Shown piece after piece: positions 29,083 to 41,227 of a DNA stretch of 41,581 nt (its first letter is position 1; the number at the start of each line of letters is the position of its first letter). The DNA comes from Pseudobdellovibrionaceae bacterium (GTDB taxonomy: Bacteria > Bdellovibrionota > Bdellovibrionia > Bdellovibrionales > UBA1609): positions 1 to 41,581 of the forward strand of contig CANEZP010000022.1 in assembly GCA_947444305.1 (NCBI GenBank), read 5' to 3'. The position numbers and the translations under genes are program-made. The notes beneath the pieces were generated by a model. That model had not been told where the DNA came from, did no database searches, and worked only from the letters and a program-made list of their open reading frames with translations.

Positions 29083-30225
29083 CTAGAACAAGTACCGGCG
29101 ATACGCGACGCTTGAGATCAAGCCGAGCCCGGTCATGGTCGTTAGCAAACTCGAACCGCCGTAACTTAGAAGCGGTAAGGGGACGCCCACGATAGGTAAT
29201 ATTCCGATGACCATCCCCATGTTGACGAACACCGCCCAGAACAAATAGCTAAAGACGCCCACCACCATCAGCGCGCCGGCTTTATCGCGGGCGGAAATGG
29301 CGATCCGCACCGCCATCAGGTAGAGAATCACGAATAATCCCAGCGTCGTAGCGCTGCCGATGAATCCGTGTTCTTCGCTTAAGACCGAGAAGATAAAATC
29401 GGTGTGACGTTCGGGCAAAAACTCGAGCTGGCTTTGCGTGCCTTTGCGAAAACCTTTACCGAGAACCTTGCCGCTCCCGACGGCAATCTTAGACTGAATC
29501 GAGTTGTAGCCCGTGCCGCGTGGGTCCCGGCCCGGAGATAAAAAAGTGAGAACCCGATTTTTTTGGTAATCACGGAGCGCGAAATTCCAAACGATCGGCG
29601 CCGCCACGACCGCCACGATCGCGGTAAAGATCAAGATACCTTTGCGAACGCCGACGAAGATCAGCATCGAGCCCGTGATCGCGAGCAACATCATCGCCGT
29701 ACCCAAATCGGGTTGTTTAACGACGAGAACGAAGGGCACGAAGAAGAGCGCCGCGGGAAGCGCCAATTCGGCTAGTCCCATGCCTTTTGGATAAGTGCGG
29801 GTGGATAGAATTTTGGCCAGCACGATGACCATGATCCCCTTCATCGTTTCCGATGGCTGGTACCTAAAAAATCCGAGATCGATCCAGCGGGTCGCGCCGA
29901 GCGAAGTCTTACCGAACAACTCCACGAAAACGAGCGCGCCGATGTTTAGACCGTACAAGATGTAGGCGATGCGCACGAAGAATTTGTAATCGATCATCGT
30001 GACCGCGAGGAAGACGGACCAACCCACGCTTAACCACGCGAGCTGCATCCAAAACAAATCCATTTTGTCTTTTGAAAACGCACCGTGGGTGGCGCTGTAA
30101 AGATTGATCAGTCCGATCAAATTCAGGGCGAGGATAACGAAGGCAAAATTTAAATCGAGGCGCGAGAAACGGTTTCGTTCTTCAACGTTGAGACCGGCGT
30201 TCAGTAACTCTGGTCCTAATCTCAC
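29083..30225 (-). CDS. rodA: Peptidoglycan glycosyltransferase RodA (SEDS family)
   Basis: RodA polymerises lipid II glycan strands in the Rod elongation complex with PBP2. It shows about ten hydrophobic spans and SEDS motifs: KQPDLGTAMMLLAI, SGKVLGKGFRKGTQSQLEFLPERHTDFIFSVLSEEHGFIGS (with the catalytic-region aspartate in RHTDF), and the C-terminal GVPLPLLSYGGSSLLTTMTGLGLISSV. The length of 380 is normal. The start is GTG inside the mrdA stop (GTGA), after an N-terminal segment of about 20 cytoplasmic residues. It is the last core gene of the mreC-mreD-mrdA-rodA operon. Confidence 0.95.
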   Translation of the reverse strand: MRLGPELLNAGLNVEERNRFSRLDLNFAFVILALNLIGLINLYSATHGAFSKDKMDLFWMQLAWLSVGWSVFLAVTMIDYKFFVRIAYILYGLNIGALVFVELFGKTSLGATRWIDLGFFRYQPSETMKGIMVIVLAKILSTRTYPKGMGLAELALPAALFFVPFVLVVKQPDLGTAMMLLAITGSMLIFVGVRKGILIFTAIVAVVAAPIVWNFALRDYQKNRVLTFLSPGRDPRGTGYNSIQSKIAVGSGKVLGKGFRKGTQSQLEFLPERHTDFIFSVLSEEHGFIGSATTLGLFVILYLMAVRIAISARDKAGALMVVGVFSYLFWAVFVNMGMVIGILPIVGVPLPLLSYGGSSLLTTMTGLGLISSVAYRRYLF

Positions 30226-32237
30226 TCGGCCTCCTCGATCACGCCCGCGGGCACCGGTACGGGTTTCGGCGCGGCTTTTTTGCCGGCCTTAAGCGCCTTT
30301 TTCTCGAGCGCGGCTTTCGCCAGCTCGGGATGGTATTTATCGAAGTAGGCGGTCATTACGTCGTGCACGATGGGCGCACCGCCGCGCGCGCCCGAGCACG
30401 AGTGCTGCGCAAGTACGGCTACGGTAATCTCGGGATTTTCAACGGGCGCGAAGGCGACGAACCAACCGTGGTGACGCTGAGTGATCGGACGGGAGTCACA
30501 ACGATTATAAATTTCGTCGGCCGAGAACGAGCGGACTTGGGTCGTGCCGGTTTTGCCGGCCATTTCTACGCCTTCGAGCCGGGAAGCGCGCGCCGTTCCG
30601 CCTTCGCCTTCGACCACGCGGCGCATACCTTCTTTGACCGCTTTAAAAGTCGACTTGTCGATGATCACGCCGTACTCGTTCGGTTCACTCGCGTCGCGCA
30701 CAAGCTGCGGCTGGAATTCTTGAATGACGGTGGAATCTTGACCCAAGATTTTTTTGATCAAGAAAGGTTTAAAAACCTTTCCGTCTTGCCCGATGGCATT
30801 GTACGCGACCGCCATTTGCAATGCCGTCACGAGCACGAAGCCTTGGCCGATGGCGTTCGATAAGTTTTCGCCGGGTTGCCACTCTTCGCCAAGTTTCTTC
30901 ACTTTCCATTCGGAAGTCGGGATAAGGCCCGAAACTTCGTGGGTCATCGATATGCCGGTCTTCGCGCCTAAGCCCAAAACCTTCGCGTAGGGCGCGAGCC
31001 GATCGATACCGAGCTGAATGCCCATCTTATAAAAGAAAACGTTCGAGGATACTTCGATCGCCTTAACGATGTTGATCATCCCGTTATTAGTTTTGTGTGA
31101 CTCGTGATAAACGCGGCGGCCGAACTTCAAGGTGCCGGGCGCATTCACCAGGCTCGTGGGCGTTACGATCTTTTCCGAGATGGCGGCCAAGGCCACGATC
31201 GGCTTAAAGGTCGAACCCGGCGAGAAGTGATCTTGGATGACTTTGTTTCGGAGAGGTCTGAACGGATCGTTGATCAGCTGTGCCCAAATCTGCGGCGGAA
31301 TCCCGGTCGAAAAATTGTTCGGATCGTAAGACGGCGTGTTCACCCAAGCGAGAATCTCGCCGTTGCTTTTCATGACGATGACGCCGCCGATACGCGGGCC
31401 GACGGCATCTTGGCGGTTCATCGCTTTGTAGGCCGCTTCTTGCAAATCTTTATCGATCGTTAATACAAGGTTGTGACCGGGCATGGCGGGCAGGGGTTTG
31501 AAGCCGAAGTAATTTGGATTGTCGCTAGGCGCTTCGCGGCCGCGCGCGTCCACTTCGACGAAAGCGACGCCGTCCTTGCCGCGAATCGTGGTGTCCCACG
31601 TTTCTTCGAGGCCGCTCTTACCGATAATGTCCCCTTGATCGAAGGCGAACTTACCCTGGTAAAATTCATTAAACTTCGGGATTTGTTCGCGCGAAATCTC
31701 GGCGACGTAACCGAAAAGCTGCGCGCCATTTTCGGCAAGGTTGTAGTAGCGCAGGATAGATTCGTTCAAGTTTAAGCCCGGGAAGTCCCAGCGCAAAAGT
31801 TTAAGGCGGAAGAATTCTTCAAAGGTGAGGTTGTCTTTAATCTTCACCGCGCGGAACGGGCCGTCGCGGCGTTGCGTTTTACGAACGAGGTCGACGATCT
31901 GCTTGCCCGGCTGACCGATCACCTGACCGACGGCTTCCGAAGTTTCTTCTAATTTCTTGGCGTATTGGGGCGAGATCGAAGCGTCGAAACCCGGAAGGTT
32001 ATCGACCAGCACGCGGTTCTCACGGTCGAGAAAAAGGCCGCGCGGGGAGGGCAGCTTCGACTCTTTCACCCGGTTCTTTTCGGAAACCTGGCGCAGCTCC
32101 GTTCCCAGCATAATCTGCAAAAACCAAAGCCGGCCCAAGATCAGCGTGCAGCAAATTAAAATAATTCCGTAAAGAATCTTATAGCGGGGCTGATATTCGC
32201 GCGCTTCCTCTTCGGAAGTTTGTAGGAAATCACTCAT
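30222..32237 (-). CDS. mrdA: Penicillin-binding protein 2 (transpeptidase)
   Basis: PBP2 is the class B transpeptidase that crosslinks peptidoglycan during elongation, paired with RodA. One N-terminal membrane span (ILYGIILICCTLILGRLWFL, about residues 20-40) precedes a pedestal domain with GLFLDRENRVLVDN. The transpeptidase domain has the active-site serine in SPGSTFKP (SxxK, near residue 340), SSN in VSSNVFFY (SxN) and KTGTTQV (KTG). At 671 residues it is slightly longer than E. coli PBP2 (633), with a lysine/alanine-rich C-terminal tail. The ATG overlaps the mreD stop as ATGA, and the rodA start overlaps its own stop, so all are translationally coupled. Confidence 0.95.
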   Translation of the reverse strand: MSDFLQTSEEEAREYQPRYKILYGIILICCTLILGRLWFLQIMLGTELRQVSEKNRVKESKLPSPRGLFLDRENRVLVDNLPGFDASISPQYAKKLEETSEAVGQVIGQPGKQIVDLVRKTQRRDGPFRAVKIKDNLTFEEFFRLKLLRWDFPGLNLNESILRYYNLAENGAQLFGYVAEISREQIPKFNEFYQGKFAFDQGDIIGKSGLEETWDTTIRGKDGVAFVEVDARGREAPSDNPNYFGFKPLPAMPGHNLVLTIDKDLQEAAYKAMNRQDAVGPRIGGVIVMKSNGEILAWVNTPSYDPNNFSTGIPPQIWAQLINDPFRPLRNKVIQDHFSPGSTFKPIVALAAISEKIVTPTSLVNAPGTLKFGRRVYHESHKTNNGMINIVKAIEVSSNVFFYKMGIQLGIDRLAPYAKVLGLGAKTGISMTHEVSGLIPTSEWKVKKLGEEWQPGENLSNAIGQGFVLVTALQMAVAYNAIGQDGKVFKPFLIKKILGQDSTVIQEFQPQLVRDASEPNEYGVIIDKSTFKAVKEGMRRVVEGEGGTARASRLEGVEMAGKTGTTQVRSFSADEIYNRCDSRPITQRHHGWFVAFAPVENPEITVAVLAQHSCSGARGGAPIVHDVMTAYFDKYHPELAKAALEKKALKAGKKAAPKPVPVPAGVIEEAE

Positions 32238-32773
32238 CGAGGACCCACCCGGCCTTCGGAGCCGGCGTCCATCAAGGAAACGCGGTCGTAGAATTGGTAG
32301 AGCCGGTAAACGGGAAAGCTAAACAGCATCGTTAAAAGCGCCGAGATCAACCAATCGAACACTTCGGGAATGAAAAGCGGATTCTTGTCGAACCAGCGTG
32401 AACAAAGCCAAAACAAGAACGGCGCCGCGAGCGAGGCCACGCCGACCATCAACATAAAGAACGTCGGACCGCCCCAGAACACGCGCTCACGAATCAATAT
32501 TAAGCTCAACATCAGCAACAACCCGTAAATCATCATCGCTTCGAACGGAAAAACGGTGAACGAAGAAAACACAAACGTAAGCAGGTAAGTCATCAGGGTG
32601 GCTTCCCACAGCGGGCGGGTAACGCTCATATAAACTAGTATTATTAACCACAGCATCGGCGCGGGGAAGCGGCCGAGCACCAAAAACCAAAGTGAAGTTT
32701 GAAACGCCGTGAAGAGCGCCGCGGTGGCCAGCATCAAAAATAAGCTAAGCGCCCAGTACCAAGGGATTTTCAA
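32234..32773 (-). CDS. mreD: Rod shape-determining protein MreD
   Basis: MreD is a small inner-membrane protein that links MreC to the elongation complex. The 179 residues hold five or six hydrophobic spans (WALSLFLMLATAALFTAF; MLWLIILVYMSV; MIYGLLLMLSLILI; FFMLMVGVASLAAPFLFWL; LISALLTMLFSFPVYRLYQF). The sequence is poorly conserved in this family, and the call rests strongly on its place between mreC and mrdA. The start is a TTG overlapping the mreC stop (TTGA). The length is close to E. coli MreD (162). Confidence 0.9.
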   Translation of the reverse strand: MKIPWYWALSLFLMLATAALFTAFQTSLWFLVLGRFPAPMLWLIILVYMSVTRPLWEATLMTYLLTFVFSSFTVFPFEAMMIYGLLLMLSLILIRERVFWGGPTFFMLMVGVASLAAPFLFWLCSRWFDKNPLFIPEVFDWLISALLTMLFSFPVYRLYQFYDRVSLMDAGSEGRVGPR

Positions 32774-33636
32774 TCTTCGGCTCCCACATCGGCATCCGGC
32801 GCTTTAGGCGTCAGATCTTGATGGTTCGCGTTTAAGACAATGAACAGCTCTTCGAGATTCAGCGGTTCGACCGCGGGTTTAATGCCGACCTCTTGAGTCA
32901 TGCCGTAACGGCTTTTGTCGATCGAGGTTACGGTGCCGATCGGAAAACCTTTGGGGAATAAATTGAACAAACCCGAAGTGACGACCAAATCGCCCACCTT
33001 CACGTCATCGCTTCGCTTAAGATAGCGAAGCCGGCAGTTCGTTCGGCTTATACCCTCAACGAGGCCCTGCGCCCGCGACCTTTGAACGAGTGCGTCAATC
33101 ACCGCGTAACGATCGGTGAGAAGCAAAATTTGCGAGGATTCGTTTTCGACCCGGAAAGTGTAACCGACGACGCCGCCGATGGTCAGCGCGGCCATATTTT
33201 TTTGCACACCGTGGCTCAACCCGCGATTGACCGTTATGGTGTTGTGATCCGGCAAGAGATCGCGCCCGATCACGCGTGCCGCCAATAAGTTCATTTTGTT
33301 CGCCTGCTTGAAACTGAGCAGGCCGTTGAGCCGTTCATTTTCAAGTTTTAGCTCGGTAAAGGCACTCAGCTGGGCGTTTAATTCGGCGAGTTGGCTCTTT
33401 AACTCCGCGTTCAATTTCTTCACGCCGATTAAATCCAAGTAGAGCGAAGTCGTGCCGCGCACTCCCGATGAAAACGACGAGAAGCCACGCTGTAGCGCAC
33501 TTCCGGCGAAGGTGAAGGGACGGGTGAACCACAATTCTTCTTCCGACTTTCGCTGCATGTTAATAGCGATCAACGGCAAAACAACTAAGGCTACGACTAA
33601 GAAGACTTTGCGCACATCAAAGGTGAAAAAGTTCAT
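32770..33636 (-). CDS. mreC: Rod shape-determining protein MreC
   Basis: MreC is a periplasmic scaffold, anchored in the inner membrane, that activates PBP2-RodA. It shows an N-terminal span (VFLVVALVVLPLIAINM), then a coiled coil (KKLNAELKSQLAELNAQLSAFTELKLENERLNGLL, about residues 75-110) and a beta-barrel domain with family motifs VIGRDLLPDHNTITVNRG, VGYTFRVENESSQILLLTDRYAVIDA and VGDLVVTSGLFNLFPKGFPIGTV. The length is 288. It is the first gene of the operon, divergent from the PpiD-like gene with a 108-base gap for the two promoters. No mreB precedes it. Confidence 0.95.
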   Translation of the reverse strand: MNFFTFDVRKVFLVVALVVLPLIAINMQRKSEEELWFTRPFTFAGSALQRGFSSFSSGVRGTTSLYLDLIGVKKLNAELKSQLAELNAQLSAFTELKLENERLNGLLSFKQANKMNLLAARVIGRDLLPDHNTITVNRGLSHGVQKNMAALTIGGVVGYTFRVENESSQILLLTDRYAVIDALVQRSRAQGLVEGISRTNCRLRYLKRSDDVKVGDLVVTSGLFNLFPKGFPIGTVTSIDKSRYGMTQEVGIKPAVEPLNLEELFIVLNANHQDLTPKAPDADVGAED

Positions 33637-33744: not shown

Positions 33745-35256
33745 ATGTTCGACAAATTGCAGAAGTACATGAAGCCTAAATCCGGTAGCCAAGGCAAAAC
33801 GTTCAGCTGGCGCAACTGGGTCGCTTACGTCATCTTCGGCGCGATCATCCTCGTCTTCGCCCTTTTCGGCTTAGATAAAAACAACGGCGGGCAAAGCACG
33901 GGTGGAGTGGCCGCGGTCGTGAATCACGAATCGATTTCTCTCGCCGAGTTCCGTCAGCGCGTGGAGAGCAAAGAACAGAACATGCGAATGATGGATCAGC
34001 TGCCCGAGGCGCAACGAAAGATGTTCGCGCAAAAGGTGCGCAAAGAAGCTTTGGACGAACTCATCCTAGGTGAGTTGGTTTACCAAGCGGCCGCCGACCG
34101 CGGCGTGATCGCGGCCGACGGTGAGGTTCGTGAATACATCCGCCAAATTCCAATCCTTCAAGAGGCCGGGCAGTTTAAGGGCGATCGCTACCGTATGTTC
34201 CTGCAACAAATGGGCATCAGCGCGGGGGATTTCGAGCGTCAGGTGCGCAAACAATTAGTCACGCAAAAGCTGCAAGAGCTTTTCGTCGGTTCGGCTACGC
34301 CCAGCCGCGAAGAGTTGCGGCGCAATCGCCTACTGGCGAACCAAAAGGTAAACATCCGCTACGCCGAGCTTAAAGAGAGCGACATGGGCAAGATGCTCAC
34401 CGAAGCCGACGTCAAAACTTTCGCCGACAATAAGAAAGCCGATATCGAAAAGTACTACAACGACAACAAAGCTGAATTCACGAGCGGCGACGTGATCAAA
34501 GCACGCCATATCCTGATTCGCGAAACTGACAAGCGCAAAGACCCGGAAGCCAAAAAAATGGCCGAAGAGATCGCGCAAAAAGCGACGCCCGCGAACTTCG
34601 CCTCGCTCGCCGCGAAGAGCAGCGATGACGACCGTTCGAAGACAAAAGGCGGGGACCTGGGAGAATTCGGCCGCGGCAGTATCGGCGGCGCGTTTGATGA
34701 CGCCGCGTTCGCGTTGAAGGCCGGCGAGATTAGCAAACCCGTGAAAACGGACTTCGGTTACCACATCATCTTTGTCGAGAAGAAGTCCGAAGCAAAGACA
34801 CTCACGCTTGCCGAAGCGACGCCCACCATCGCGCGCCGATTATTGGTTCGCGGCCAAGGTGGCGAAGCGGCCGGCAGTCTGAAAAAGACGGTTGAAGCCG
34901 GCAATAAAAAAGAATTGGATACGGAGCTCGCACGTGCGGGCGTGAAGTGGCAAGACTCCGGCGAGTTCGATCTCTCGACCAGCAACGTACCTAAAATCGG
35001 TGAGAGCCCGGCTTTGATGTCGGCTTTGCTCAAGCACGGCAACAAGGGTGGTTTGGTTCAGCAAGTCGTGCCCTACAAAGAGGGGTTCCTTGTCGCCGAA
35101 ATCTTGAGCTGGAAAGAAGCTCCGGATAAAAATCCCGATGTCGAGGGTCTCGAACGTATGGTCGCCTTCCGCAAGTCCTCCGACCTGATCGAGACTTGGT
35201 CCAAGGCGGTCGAAGCCGACGCTACGATCCAGCGTAATCCGCGCGTCCTTCAGTAA
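33745..35256 (+). CDS. ppiD: Membrane-anchored peptidyl-prolyl isomerase/chaperone (PpiD/SurA-like)
   Basis: This is a periplasmic folding factor for secreted and outer-membrane proteins. A single N-terminal anchor (WVAYVIFGAIILVFALFGL, about 26-44) is followed by a SurA-N-like chaperone domain (VVNHESISLAEFRQRVESK to about residue 190). A parvulin domain spans about 248-350 (IKARHILIRETD, then GGDLGEFGRGSIGGAFDDAAFAL and FGYHIIFVEKK), and a C-terminal helical region follows. The overall design matches PpiD, although at 503 residues it is shorter than E. coli PpiD (623), with one parvulin domain. The ATG has GGAG upstream. It is divergent from mreC. The symbol is by architecture. Confidence 0.88.
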   Translation: MFDKLQKYMKPKSGSQGKTFSWRNWVAYVIFGAIILVFALFGLDKNNGGQSTGGVAAVVNHESISLAEFRQRVESKEQNMRMMDQLPEAQRKMFAQKVRKEALDELILGELVYQAAADRGVIAADGEVREYIRQIPILQEAGQFKGDRYRMFLQQMGISAGDFERQVRKQLVTQKLQELFVGSATPSREELRRNRLLANQKVNIRYAELKESDMGKMLTEADVKTFADNKKADIEKYYNDNKAEFTSGDVIKARHILIRETDKRKDPEAKKMAEEIAQKATPANFASLAAKSSDDDRSKTKGGDLGEFGRGSIGGAFDDAAFALKAGEISKPVKTDFGYHIIFVEKKSEAKTLTLAEATPTIARRLLVRGQGGEAAGSLKKTVEAGNKKELDTELARAGVKWQDSGEFDLSTSNVPKIGESPALMSALLKHGNKGGLVQQVVPYKEGFLVAEILSWKEAPDKNPDVEGLERMVAFRKSSDLIETWSKAVEADATIQRNPRVLQ

Positions 35257-38384: not shown

Positions 38385-39209
38385 ATGGTTAAGCCGAACG
38401 TTTTTGATTTTAAATCCTATCGGGATTACGTCCGCGAAGCCCTGGGGGGAACGCGCAAACGAACCGGACTTCGGATGCAGGCGGCCGCGGCCATGGGTTG
38501 TCAGCCGACCTACCTCTCACAAGTCCTTCAAGCGAAAACCGATTTAAGTTTGGAGCAGGGTCTGAAACTTTCGCAGTTTCTCGCGCATGCGTCGGATGAG
38601 CGACAGATGTTTTTGCTGCTGATCCAGCTCGAACGTGCGGGGACGGGCGATCTGAGGGAACATTTCACGCAAGATATCGAGACTTTGCTGCAACGTCGCA
38701 CGCTAATCAAAAACCGGTTGAAGGCTCAAAACGGTCTGACGAGCGAAGACCAATCCATTTATTACGGGAGTTGGATTTATTCGTGCGTGCACGTGTTGGT
38801 CACGATACCGGATTTATCTTCCGCGGATTCAATTGCGGCATACTTAGGCTTATCGCGTGTGCAGGTGGCCGAAGTCTTGAGTTTCCTTGAATCAAGAAAA
38901 TTGATCGTCGATGCAGGGGAGGGCAATTACCAAGCCGGCCCATTACATTTGCATCTTCCGGATGACTCGCCTCACTTACAAAAACATCACGCAAACTGGC
39001 GCTTGCGGGCAATTCAATCCTTCGATCGAAAAACCCGCTCGCAAGAAATGCATTACTCGGCGGTCGTCACGATTTCTGAAAAAGACGCGGCGTTGGTGAA
39101 AGAGAAACTCATGCGATGCCTGCAAGAAAACGTAGAGACCATTACGAATTCGCCGGCAGAAAATGTGTACTGCTACAATATTGATTGGTTTGAACTTCAG
39201 CCAAAGTAG
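38385..39209 (+). CDS. TIGR02147 family (DUF4423) helix-turn-helix protein
   Basis: This is a second member of the family seen at 12808. The N-terminal signature VFDFKSYRDYVREALGG is followed by a helix-turn-helix (LRMQAAAAMGCQPTYLSQVLQAKTDLSLEQGLKLSQFL, about residues 27-65). The second half has a winged-helix-like part (SIAAYLGLSRVQVAEVLSFLESRKLI) and a C-terminal domain (YYGSWIYSCVHVLVTIPDLSS). The length of 274 is usual. It is divergent from the small secreted protein and upstream of the subtilisin gene, either of which could be a target. The identity between the two family members in this window is low outside the signatures. The ATG start is well placed but has a poor ribosome site. Confidence 0.83.
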   Translation: MVKPNVFDFKSYRDYVREALGGTRKRTGLRMQAAAAMGCQPTYLSQVLQAKTDLSLEQGLKLSQFLAHASDERQMFLLLIQLERAGTGDLREHFTQDIETLLQRRTLIKNRLKAQNGLTSEDQSIYYGSWIYSCVHVLVTIPDLSSADSIAAYLGLSRVQVAEVLSFLESRKLIVDAGEGNYQAGPLHLHLPDDSPHLQKHHANWRLRAIQSFDRKTRSQEMHYSAVVTISEKDAALVKEKLMRCLQENVETITNSPAENVYCYNIDWFELQPK

Positions 39210-39385: not shown

Positions 39386-41227
39386 TTGAAAAGCACGACG
39401 CCTTTACGATCATTAGTGATGCTGCTCGCCCTCGCCGGTTTAACCGCGCAGGCGCAAACTCCCCAGTACGTTCCCGGCGAAGTGATCGTTCGCTTGAAGG
39501 GCGACGCCGACTCCGCAGAGTCTTACGCCTTCCTCGGAAAAGCGACCTACAGCAAAGCCATGAACTTGAAAGAGTCATGGACCGGCATGAACATGTACAA
39601 CTTCAAGCTCTCAAAAGGGCAGAGTGTTGAACAAGCCGTTACCGAGATGAAAAAAGACCCGGCCGTTCTTTACGCCGAACCTAACTATATATTCGGTAAA
39701 TCGTCGGACACGGGAATGCATCAGACTTTCTCGGCCGCCGAAATCCAAGCCGCCTCCGTAGACAACTCCGCGCAAGCCGTTTACATGGCGACCGGCGCAC
39801 CCATTGGCGTGCAAAACGTTTGGGGAACGTCGACCGTACCGGTCACGAAACCCGTCGTCGCGGTCATCGACACCGGCCTCGACACCACGCACTTCGTAAT
39901 CGAACAATCGCACGCGCTCTGGACCAACGTGAATGAAACTCCGGGCGACGGCATCGACAATGACGGCAACGGTTACGTCGACGATGTTCATGGCTGGAAC
40001 TTCGTCGACAACAACGGCTCCATGTACGACGACGACGGCCACGGCACGCACGTCTCGGGAATTATCTTGAGCGTCGATCAAAACATCTACGCGACGCCGC
40101 TGCGTGAATCAAAAATCAGCATCATGCCTTTGAAGTTCTTGAACGGAAACGGCGTCGGTACGACTTCGAACGCGATCCGCGCCGTGTACTACGCCGTTAA
40201 TAACGGCGCCCGTATCTTGAACAATTCGTGGGGCGGTCCCACGTACAGCGCGGCTTTGCACGAAGCCGTGGCTTACACTTATTCTAAAGGCGCGATCTTC
40301 GTCGCTGCGGCCGGTAACGCGGGCACGAACAACGACGCCACGCCGATGTATCCTTCGAGCTACGACGTTCCGAACGTCATCTCGATCGCGGCGACGACCG
40401 ATTACGATTACCTGGCTTCATTTTCTAATTTCGGCGGCAGCACCGTCGATCTCGGTAGCCCGGGCGTTTACATATTAAGTTTGATTCCCAACGACGGGTT
40501 CGGCACCTCGAGCGGCACGTCGATGGCTACGCCCTTCGTCGCCGGAACCGCGGCTCAGATGAGCGTTGAGTCGCCGAACATGAACGGCTACCAAATGAAA
40601 TCAATTTTGCTCACGCAAAAAGCGAACGTTACCCAGCTGAACGGCAAAGTCGTTTCGGCCGGCCGTTTGAACACTTCGAACGCGGTCACGTACGCGAAAT
40701 CGGTCGGCGTCGATGCGTCGCAACCTGCCTACGTTTTGAGTTACCAAGCCGATCGTCAACTCGCTTCGAGCATCGCCGGTGGCGGTGGTTGCGGAACGGT
40801 AAGCAAGATGGGCGTGGGCGCCGCAGAAGGTTCGCCTTGGTCTTCCGGCGTGATCGTATTGCTCGTGCTGGCGCCGCTCGCGGTACTCGCCGTGATGAGA
40901 ATGCGTGCACCGGCTAATCGCCGCAAACACGAGCGCTTCAAAATTAACAGCGACGTACGCATCAGCGTCGGCGACCGTGAACTTGTCGGGTCCGTTAGCA
41001 CGATCTCGCTCGGTGGAGCGCAGATCAATACCGAAGCGCTGTTGCAAGACGGCGGTTTGGTCAGCCTTACGATCTCCTCGCCCGACGGCGTGGACAAAGT
41101 CGAAGTGGCCGGCCGGGTCGTTTGGTCCGACGTCAACAAAGCTTACGGTGTTGCGTTCAACCAAGCTCCGCAAAACGCACTGTCGCGCATCGCCGACTGG
41201 ACGCGCGGGCTTCAGAAAGCCGCCTGA
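39386..41227 (+). CDS. Secreted subtilisin-like (S8) protease fused to TM segment and PilZ domain
   Basis: I place the start at TTG 39386, which has AGGGG upstream and a signal peptide right after it (SLVMLLALAGLTAQA). A longer frame from 39272 would bury the signal. Residues about 30-112 are an I9-like propeptide (YVPGEVIVRLKG, then DPAVLYAEPNYIF). The S8 domain has its triad in AVIDTGLD (about 163), DGHGTHVSG (about 220) and SGTSMATPF (about 379), with calcium-loop DGIDNDGNGYVDD. A Gly-rich GGGGCG precedes a membrane segment (about 487-506, GVIVLLVLAPLAVLAVM) and arginines. A PilZ domain (about 512-605) starts RRKHERF, holds SLGGAQI and ends in AGRVVWSDVNKAYGVAF. The predicted topology puts the protease outside and PilZ in the cytoplasm. 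Confidence 0.9.
   Translation: MKSTTPLRSLVMLLALAGLTAQAQTPQYVPGEVIVRLKGDADSAESYAFLGKATYSKAMNLKESWTGMNMYNFKLSKGQSVEQAVTEMKKDPAVLYAEPNYIFGKSSDTGMHQTFSAAEIQAASVDNSAQAVYMATGAPIGVQNVWGTSTVPVTKPVVAVIDTGLDTTHFVIEQSHALWTNVNETPGDGIDNDGNGYVDDVHGWNFVDNNGSMYDDDGHGTHVSGIILSVDQNIYATPLRESKISIMPLKFLNGNGVGTTSNAIRAVYYAVNNGARILNNSWGGPTYSAALHEAVAYTYSKGAIFVAAAGNAGTNNDATPMYPSSYDVPNVISIAATTDYDYLASFSNFGGSTVDLGSPGVYILSLIPNDGFGTSSGTSMATPFVAGTAAQMSVESPNMNGYQMKSILLTQKANVTQLNGKVVSAGRLNTSNAVTYAKSVGVDASQPAYVLSYQADRQLASSIAGGGGCGTVSKMGVGAAEGSPWSSGVIVLLVLAPLAVLAVMRMRAPANRRKHERFKINSDVRISVGDRELVGSVSTISLGGAQINTEALLQDGGLVSLTISSPDGVDKVEVAGRVVWSDVNKAYGVAFNQAPQNALSRIADWTRGLQKAA

Follow-up and report, generated by a model that had tools for sequence, protein, structure and literature searches.

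Membrane-tethered PilZ domains regulate extracytoplasmic output in Alg44 and BcsA, and in the Lap system sensing and proteolysis fall to LapD, a degenerate GGDEF-EAL receptor, and LapG, a cysteine protease. Through this pair, c-di-GMP controls periplasmic proteolysis from the inside out (PMC3032545, PMC3032553). A protein combining a subtilase with PilZ has also been on record since 2008, when a domain survey listed "Subt-PilZ", NP_969350.1 of the predator Bdellovibrio bacteriovorus, among domain combinations whose function was indeterminate (PMC2605481). It stands in the survey table as one case of unclear role, and the passages on it discuss no membrane segment, motif, conservation or function. 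B. bacteriovorus is described as having about 15 PilZ proteins, for which study was still called for (PMC3271064), and we found no functional study of Subt-PilZ in the open-access literature.

The gene described here lies in a 41,581-nucleotide contig of a related bacterium of the Pseudobdellovibrionaceae (the window). Positions 39386-41227 of its plus strand form one unbroken frame from a TTG start to a stop, with a Shine-Dalgarno-like AGGGGA immediately 5' of the TTG. The 613-aa product consists, in order, of a signal peptide (cleavage predicted by eye after AQA), a prodomain, an S8 subtilase, a GGGGCG linker, one transmembrane (TM) segment and a PilZ domain (Table 1). Judged against the curated Pfam cut-offs, S8 (163.8 bits, gathering cut-off 21.8), PilZ (60.8 bits, cut-off 22.5) and the prodomain all score above threshold, which bears out the single-frame S8-TM-PilZ fusion that a sequence-only reading had proposed. 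To judge by its listed architecture, NP_969350.1 is probably the orthologue. Bd2692 was considered for that place through a numbering guess and rejected; it is described as a secreted protease, and PilZ is never mentioned.

Table 1. Features of the fusion gene and its surroundings in the window
Feature	Position	Strand	Basis
Sec signal peptide, residues 1-23	39386..39454	+	direct sequence reading; AF2 helix 6-17
Subtilase prodomain (Fervidolysin_NPro-like), residues 20-100	39443..39685	+	Pfam PF22148, E 4.5e-11
Peptidase S8 catalytic domain, residues 155-413	39848..40624	+	Pfam PF00082, E 6.9e-48
S8 catalytic D162	39869-39871	+	59/59 orthologues
S8 catalytic H219	40040-40042	+	59/59 orthologues
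S8 oxyanion N311	40316-40318	+	59/59 orthologues
S8 catalytic S379	40520-40522	+	59/59 orthologues
Invariant G-C-G in Gly-rich linker, residues 468-470	40787..40795	+	Cys 59/59
TM helix, residues 484-507, then basic stretch	40835..40906	+	AF2 helix, hydropathy
PilZ domain, residues 511-606, cytoplasmic (predicted)	40916..41203	+	Pfam PF07238, E 1.7e-16
PilZ motif 1, R513xxxR517	40922..40936	+	both Arg 59/59
PilZ motif 2, T539-I-S541-L-G543-G544, T replacing D/N	41000..41017	+	G543, G544 59/59; S541 56/59
Perfect hairpin and a nearly identical second copy in tandem, immediately 3' of the stop codon	41231..41296	+	-37.1 kcal/mol, z -8.5
ppiD-like gene (SurA_N_3 + PpiC rotamase)	33745..35256	+	Pfam
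Elongasome cluster next to ppiD: genes for RodA-like and PBP2-like proteins and MreC	29086..33636	-	synteny families 14, 11, 10

A search with the whole protein recovered the full-length architecture in most relatives, the full-length orthologues having about 38-68% identity. That an error of frame or assembly has fused two separate genes is practically excluded. No supporting point for such an error was found; the same architecture forms a single frame in 59 aligned orthologues and in more than 100 independent genomes across the class, no stop separates the domains, and TM and linker can be aligned across orthologues. These orthologues rule out a frame error as the source of the fusion.

For a survey of 144 genomes of the class, the query was the last 146 residues of the protein. 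The fusion occurred once per genome in 110 of them (92 of the 106 with good completeness), nearly always in frames of about 600-700 aa, and its PilZ ranks among the strongest PilZ matches within the genomes that carry it. In a phylum-wide draw, the matches listed all fell in the window's own class and none in other classes. The S8-TM-PilZ fusion is an ancient, class-wide and single-copy protein of an often predatory class. The sequence-only reading did not count it as an established family, a view that gives way to this distribution and to the 2008 table entry. Two large genomes scored as lacking the fusion carry a PilZ domain within frames 655 and 638 aa long (G085:C6:36151-36411 and G107:C18:17194-17460), and are probably cases of very divergent fusions rather than losses. 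Further absences concern genomes of only 1.2-2.1 Mb; because whole-gene losses track small genomes, genome size confounds any co-occurrence of the fusion with c-di-GMP genes.

By mean pairwise identity, the S8 domain (54%) ranks first, ahead of PilZ (46%), prodomain (38%), linker (34%) and TM segment (26%). PilZ identity is thus near that of S8 and well above that of linker and TM, and PilZ is therefore under constraint. Four relatives have no PilZ: L060, a paralogue in the window's own genome (contig C9 of G000, 62% identical), L061, L062 and L092. They end in GC(G/A) or ACG, a TM segment and a short, mostly basic tail. In a tree of the S8 domain these members are scattered within the fusion family, L060 being the sister of the window gene, so the fused form is the ancestral one, with several losses of PilZ; a recent acquisition of PilZ was rejected on the same ground. 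At least four members thus lack PilZ through loss; the exact number of loss events is uncertain in a quick tree with several weak forks and with long branches for L062 and L092. Because these members have lost PilZ yet keep protease and TM, the protease can presumably work without PilZ. Loss of PilZ was also considered as a marker of c-di-GMP loss, but this is not clear-cut: two genomes with a PilZ-less member (G005, G025) still hold three GGDEF and five PilZ domains.

The catalytic triad claimed from the sequence, together with the oxyanion Asn, is invariant in the 59 aligned orthologues, and the protein is expected to be an active protease. The S8 domain is placed with high confidence in the full-length AF2 model, and a PDB structure search with the full model gave matches dominated by subtilisins. 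Among solved structures it comes closest to deseasin MCP-01 (3vv3), with Z 43.6, 44% identity and an rmsd of 1.7 over 300 residues; pro-subtilisin structures align to the model from residue 30.

Beyond the signal peptide, hydropathy shows just one strongly hydrophobic stretch, at about residues 482-510, in which Pro497 is invariant (59/59). Lysines plus arginines average 5.9 in the 15 residues that follow the TM segment versus 1.4 before it, and the inside count exceeds the outside count in all 59 orthologues. With an N-terminal signal peptide and this positive-inside flank, the protease is predicted to lie outside the inner membrane and PilZ in the cytoplasm, the topology that had been supposed from the sequence.

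Between protease and membrane, the stretch GGGGCG (residues 465-470) includes Cys469, the sole conserved Cys of the protein among the 59 aligned orthologues. Since the Cys is retained in the PilZ-less members too, it probably serves the protease or its anchoring and not PilZ. The segment resembles known sorting tails: MYXO-CTERM has an invariant Cys, a TM segment and an Arg-rich end (PMC11980579), and VesB, an exported serine protease that like the fusion carries a Gly-rich or Cys motif ahead of a TM segment and basic residues, is handled via its GlyGly-CTERM tail (PMC13393428). By this likeness, the Cys could be lipidated or the chain cleaved close to the membrane, so that the protease is set free or anchored anew, with PilZ as a cytoplasmic stub or a regulator of that cleavage. 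The invariance of the Cys and its retention with the TM-basic end as a C-terminal tripartite tail in PilZ-less members speak for such processing, as does the arrangement at L060 8025-10521, where the paralogue's gene overlaps at the 3' end with a convergent one encoding a rhomboid protease that bears a zinc ribbon at its N-terminus. Several observations make this explanation quite improbable. No NCBIfam sorting model, MYXO-CTERM included, scored above cut-off with the whole protein or the tail alone, and in 12 genomes neither rhombosortase (TIGR03902) nor myxosortase MrtX (NF040593) was found above cut-off; there were sub-threshold rhomboids, likewise present in all control genomes, and a sub-threshold CPBP homologue in the window's own genome. 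In the 59 orthologues, the Cys does not adjoin the TM segment as it does in MYXO-CTERM but is 11-41 residues away, and the basic stretch leads into a folded PilZ domain that is kept under constraint. Nor is the motif a genome-wide tag: in four genomes, no protein outside the S8 family combined the strict GGCG-phi-V pattern with a TM segment after it. A standard sorting tag of the GlyGly/MYXO-CTERM type, to which the first reading had likened GGGGCG-TM-Arg, was accordingly discarded in the strict sense.

Folded alone by AF2, the PilZ domain reaches a pLDDT of 89.9; within the full-length model its confidence is low (35-75). Foldseek matched the isolated model to PilZ structures with probability 1.00. 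PilZ domains made up the top matches, and many of these have c-di-GMP bound (4xrn, 4rt0, 2rde, 5xly); the best were MotI, a Pseudomonas PilZ (4xrn), Alg44, VCA0042, MapZ and BcsA. With BcsA, Alg44, YcgR, MapZ and MotI the fusion shares the PilZ fold, RxxxR and SxxGG. Unlike them, it has S, T or C for D/N, and its output is an exported protease rather than a synthase, motor or methyltransferase. The canonical [D/N]xSxxG is matched in its SxxG part only, owing to T539. This T, which the first reading had remarked on, is no peculiarity of the one protein: the change is family-wide, position 539 being S in 29, T in 26, C in 3 and D in 1 of the 59 orthologues. The doubt then raised over c-di-GMP binding is supported. 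Regular-expression listing of motifs in the other PilZ proteins of the genome gave a mixed picture, with D in some and T or E in others. In a fast-evolving clade (family f8, genus g33), two members, L050 and L105, have D at the motif-2 position (EDISLGG, ADMSVGG), and their sisters have S or T; L105 is a divergent member additional to the 59 aligned fusions. The PilZ fold can be taken as certain, but not the ligand; binding of c-di-GMP is plausible.

The gene neighbourhood offers a hint of function. In the window, the ppiD-like gene is 4 kb from the fusion gene with five genes between, and of the elongasome genes beside it MreC was assigned by Pfam and RodA and PBP2 were named by eye from sequence. 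At nine loci, drawn from several families and also from another order of the class, the next gene upstream of the fusion gene is ppiD-like and has the same direction, with a gap of 89-344 bases, and mreC, the PBP2 gene and rodA adjoin. Family f8 has a different, yet likewise conserved, neighbourhood. The ancestral arrangement has ppiD next to mreC/PBP2/rodA, and this old linkage hints at a role in cell-envelope growth. Downstream, the tandem hairpins have cores AAGTCCTTA-NN-TAAGGACTT, with a 20-base core found at these two sites only in the genome, and are probably a double transcription terminator. The gene directly upstream of the fusion gene (38385-39209) encodes a TIGR02147/DUF4423 regulator. 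Elsewhere in the genome, genes for a histidine kinase and a T2SSE-type ATPase lie near L060, and another S8 protease gene (contig C2, 45784-49293) is convergent with a short PilZ gene, followed by a gene for the sub-threshold, MrtX-like CPBP protein.

The linkage also bears on the main rival to nucleotide sensing, namely that PilZ has lost nucleotide binding and is a cytoplasmic docking or localisation module that places the protease, for instance at the pole or the elongasome. Besides the proximity to mreC/PBP2/rodA, this would account for the loss of D/N in 58 of the 59 orthologues, and there is more in its favour: the best PDB match of the domain by sequence profile is the Xanthomonas PilZ group annotated as "type IV fimbriae assembly protein" (E 8.6e-4), and Myxococcus PlpA is a PilZ protein reported without c-di-GMP binding (PMC8316039). 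Against it, the RxxxR arginines and the SxxGG loop persist in essentially all orthologues and would be superfluous for pure docking, and the structurally nearest domains are ligand-bound. We therefore regard nucleotide-free docking as possible but somewhat unlikely.

The reading we prefer is that of a membrane-tethered periplasmic subtilisin over whose location or activity PilZ has control from the cytoplasmic side. Regulation by c-di-GMP, or by a dinucleotide related to it, is the likeliest view, with a probability of about 50%. The Sec pathway would export the protein until the single TM segment halts transfer, and the prodomain would be removed by self-processing of the subtilisin. Outside the inner membrane, the active S8 domain would then be tethered by a flexible leash rich in Gly, with PilZ inside. 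There PilZ, whose RxxxR is intact and whose loop is modified to SxSxxGG or TxSxxGG, would most likely be a sensor of c-di-GMP or of a related cyclic dinucleotide. Since the length of the leash varies by 30 residues and disorder is predicted for it, PilZ would more likely alter the location, partners or oligomeric state of the protease than drive a rigid conformational change through the membrane.

Control by PilZ is consistent with the invariance of RxxxR and the GG pair, the constraint on the domain, its c-di-GMP-bound structural matches, the uniform positive-inside signal and the six GGDEF domains in the window's own genome. The altered motif 2 weighs against it, as do the losses of PilZ from members that retain protease and TM, and a variable, disordered linker across which allosteric coupling would be hard. 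The nearest working analogy is LapD/LapG (PMC3032545, PMC3032553): there, sensing of c-di-GMP inside steers a protease outside, as may be the case here. Lap uses two proteins, whereas PilZ and subtilisin share one chain in the fusion, in which Pfam found neither the LapD receptor nor the LapG cysteine protease domains. A bolder version, in which an S/T variant of PilZ, perhaps tuned to 3',3'-cGAMP, directly switches an envelope-acting periplasmic subtilisin in a one-chain, inside-out manner and serves as a core regulator throughout the class, is speculative and on present evidence unlikely.

Beyond the 2008 listing, this analysis adds class-wide single-copy conservation, a topology signal, intact catalytic residues, the PilZ fold and the family-wide change in motif 2. 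The loss of D/N across the family, combined with full retention of RxxxR, provides a natural test of the purpose of the second PilZ motif, and the fusion is amenable to tests with purified domains and point mutants. Among the PilZ proteins of B. bacteriovorus, it is single-copy, class-wide and has an obvious predicted catalytic output. If PilZ does control the protease, and a second messenger is coupled to proteolysis in one polypeptide as we infer, the effect of c-di-GMP, or of a sister molecule, on proteolysis would cross the membrane by a simpler route than in LapD/LapG.
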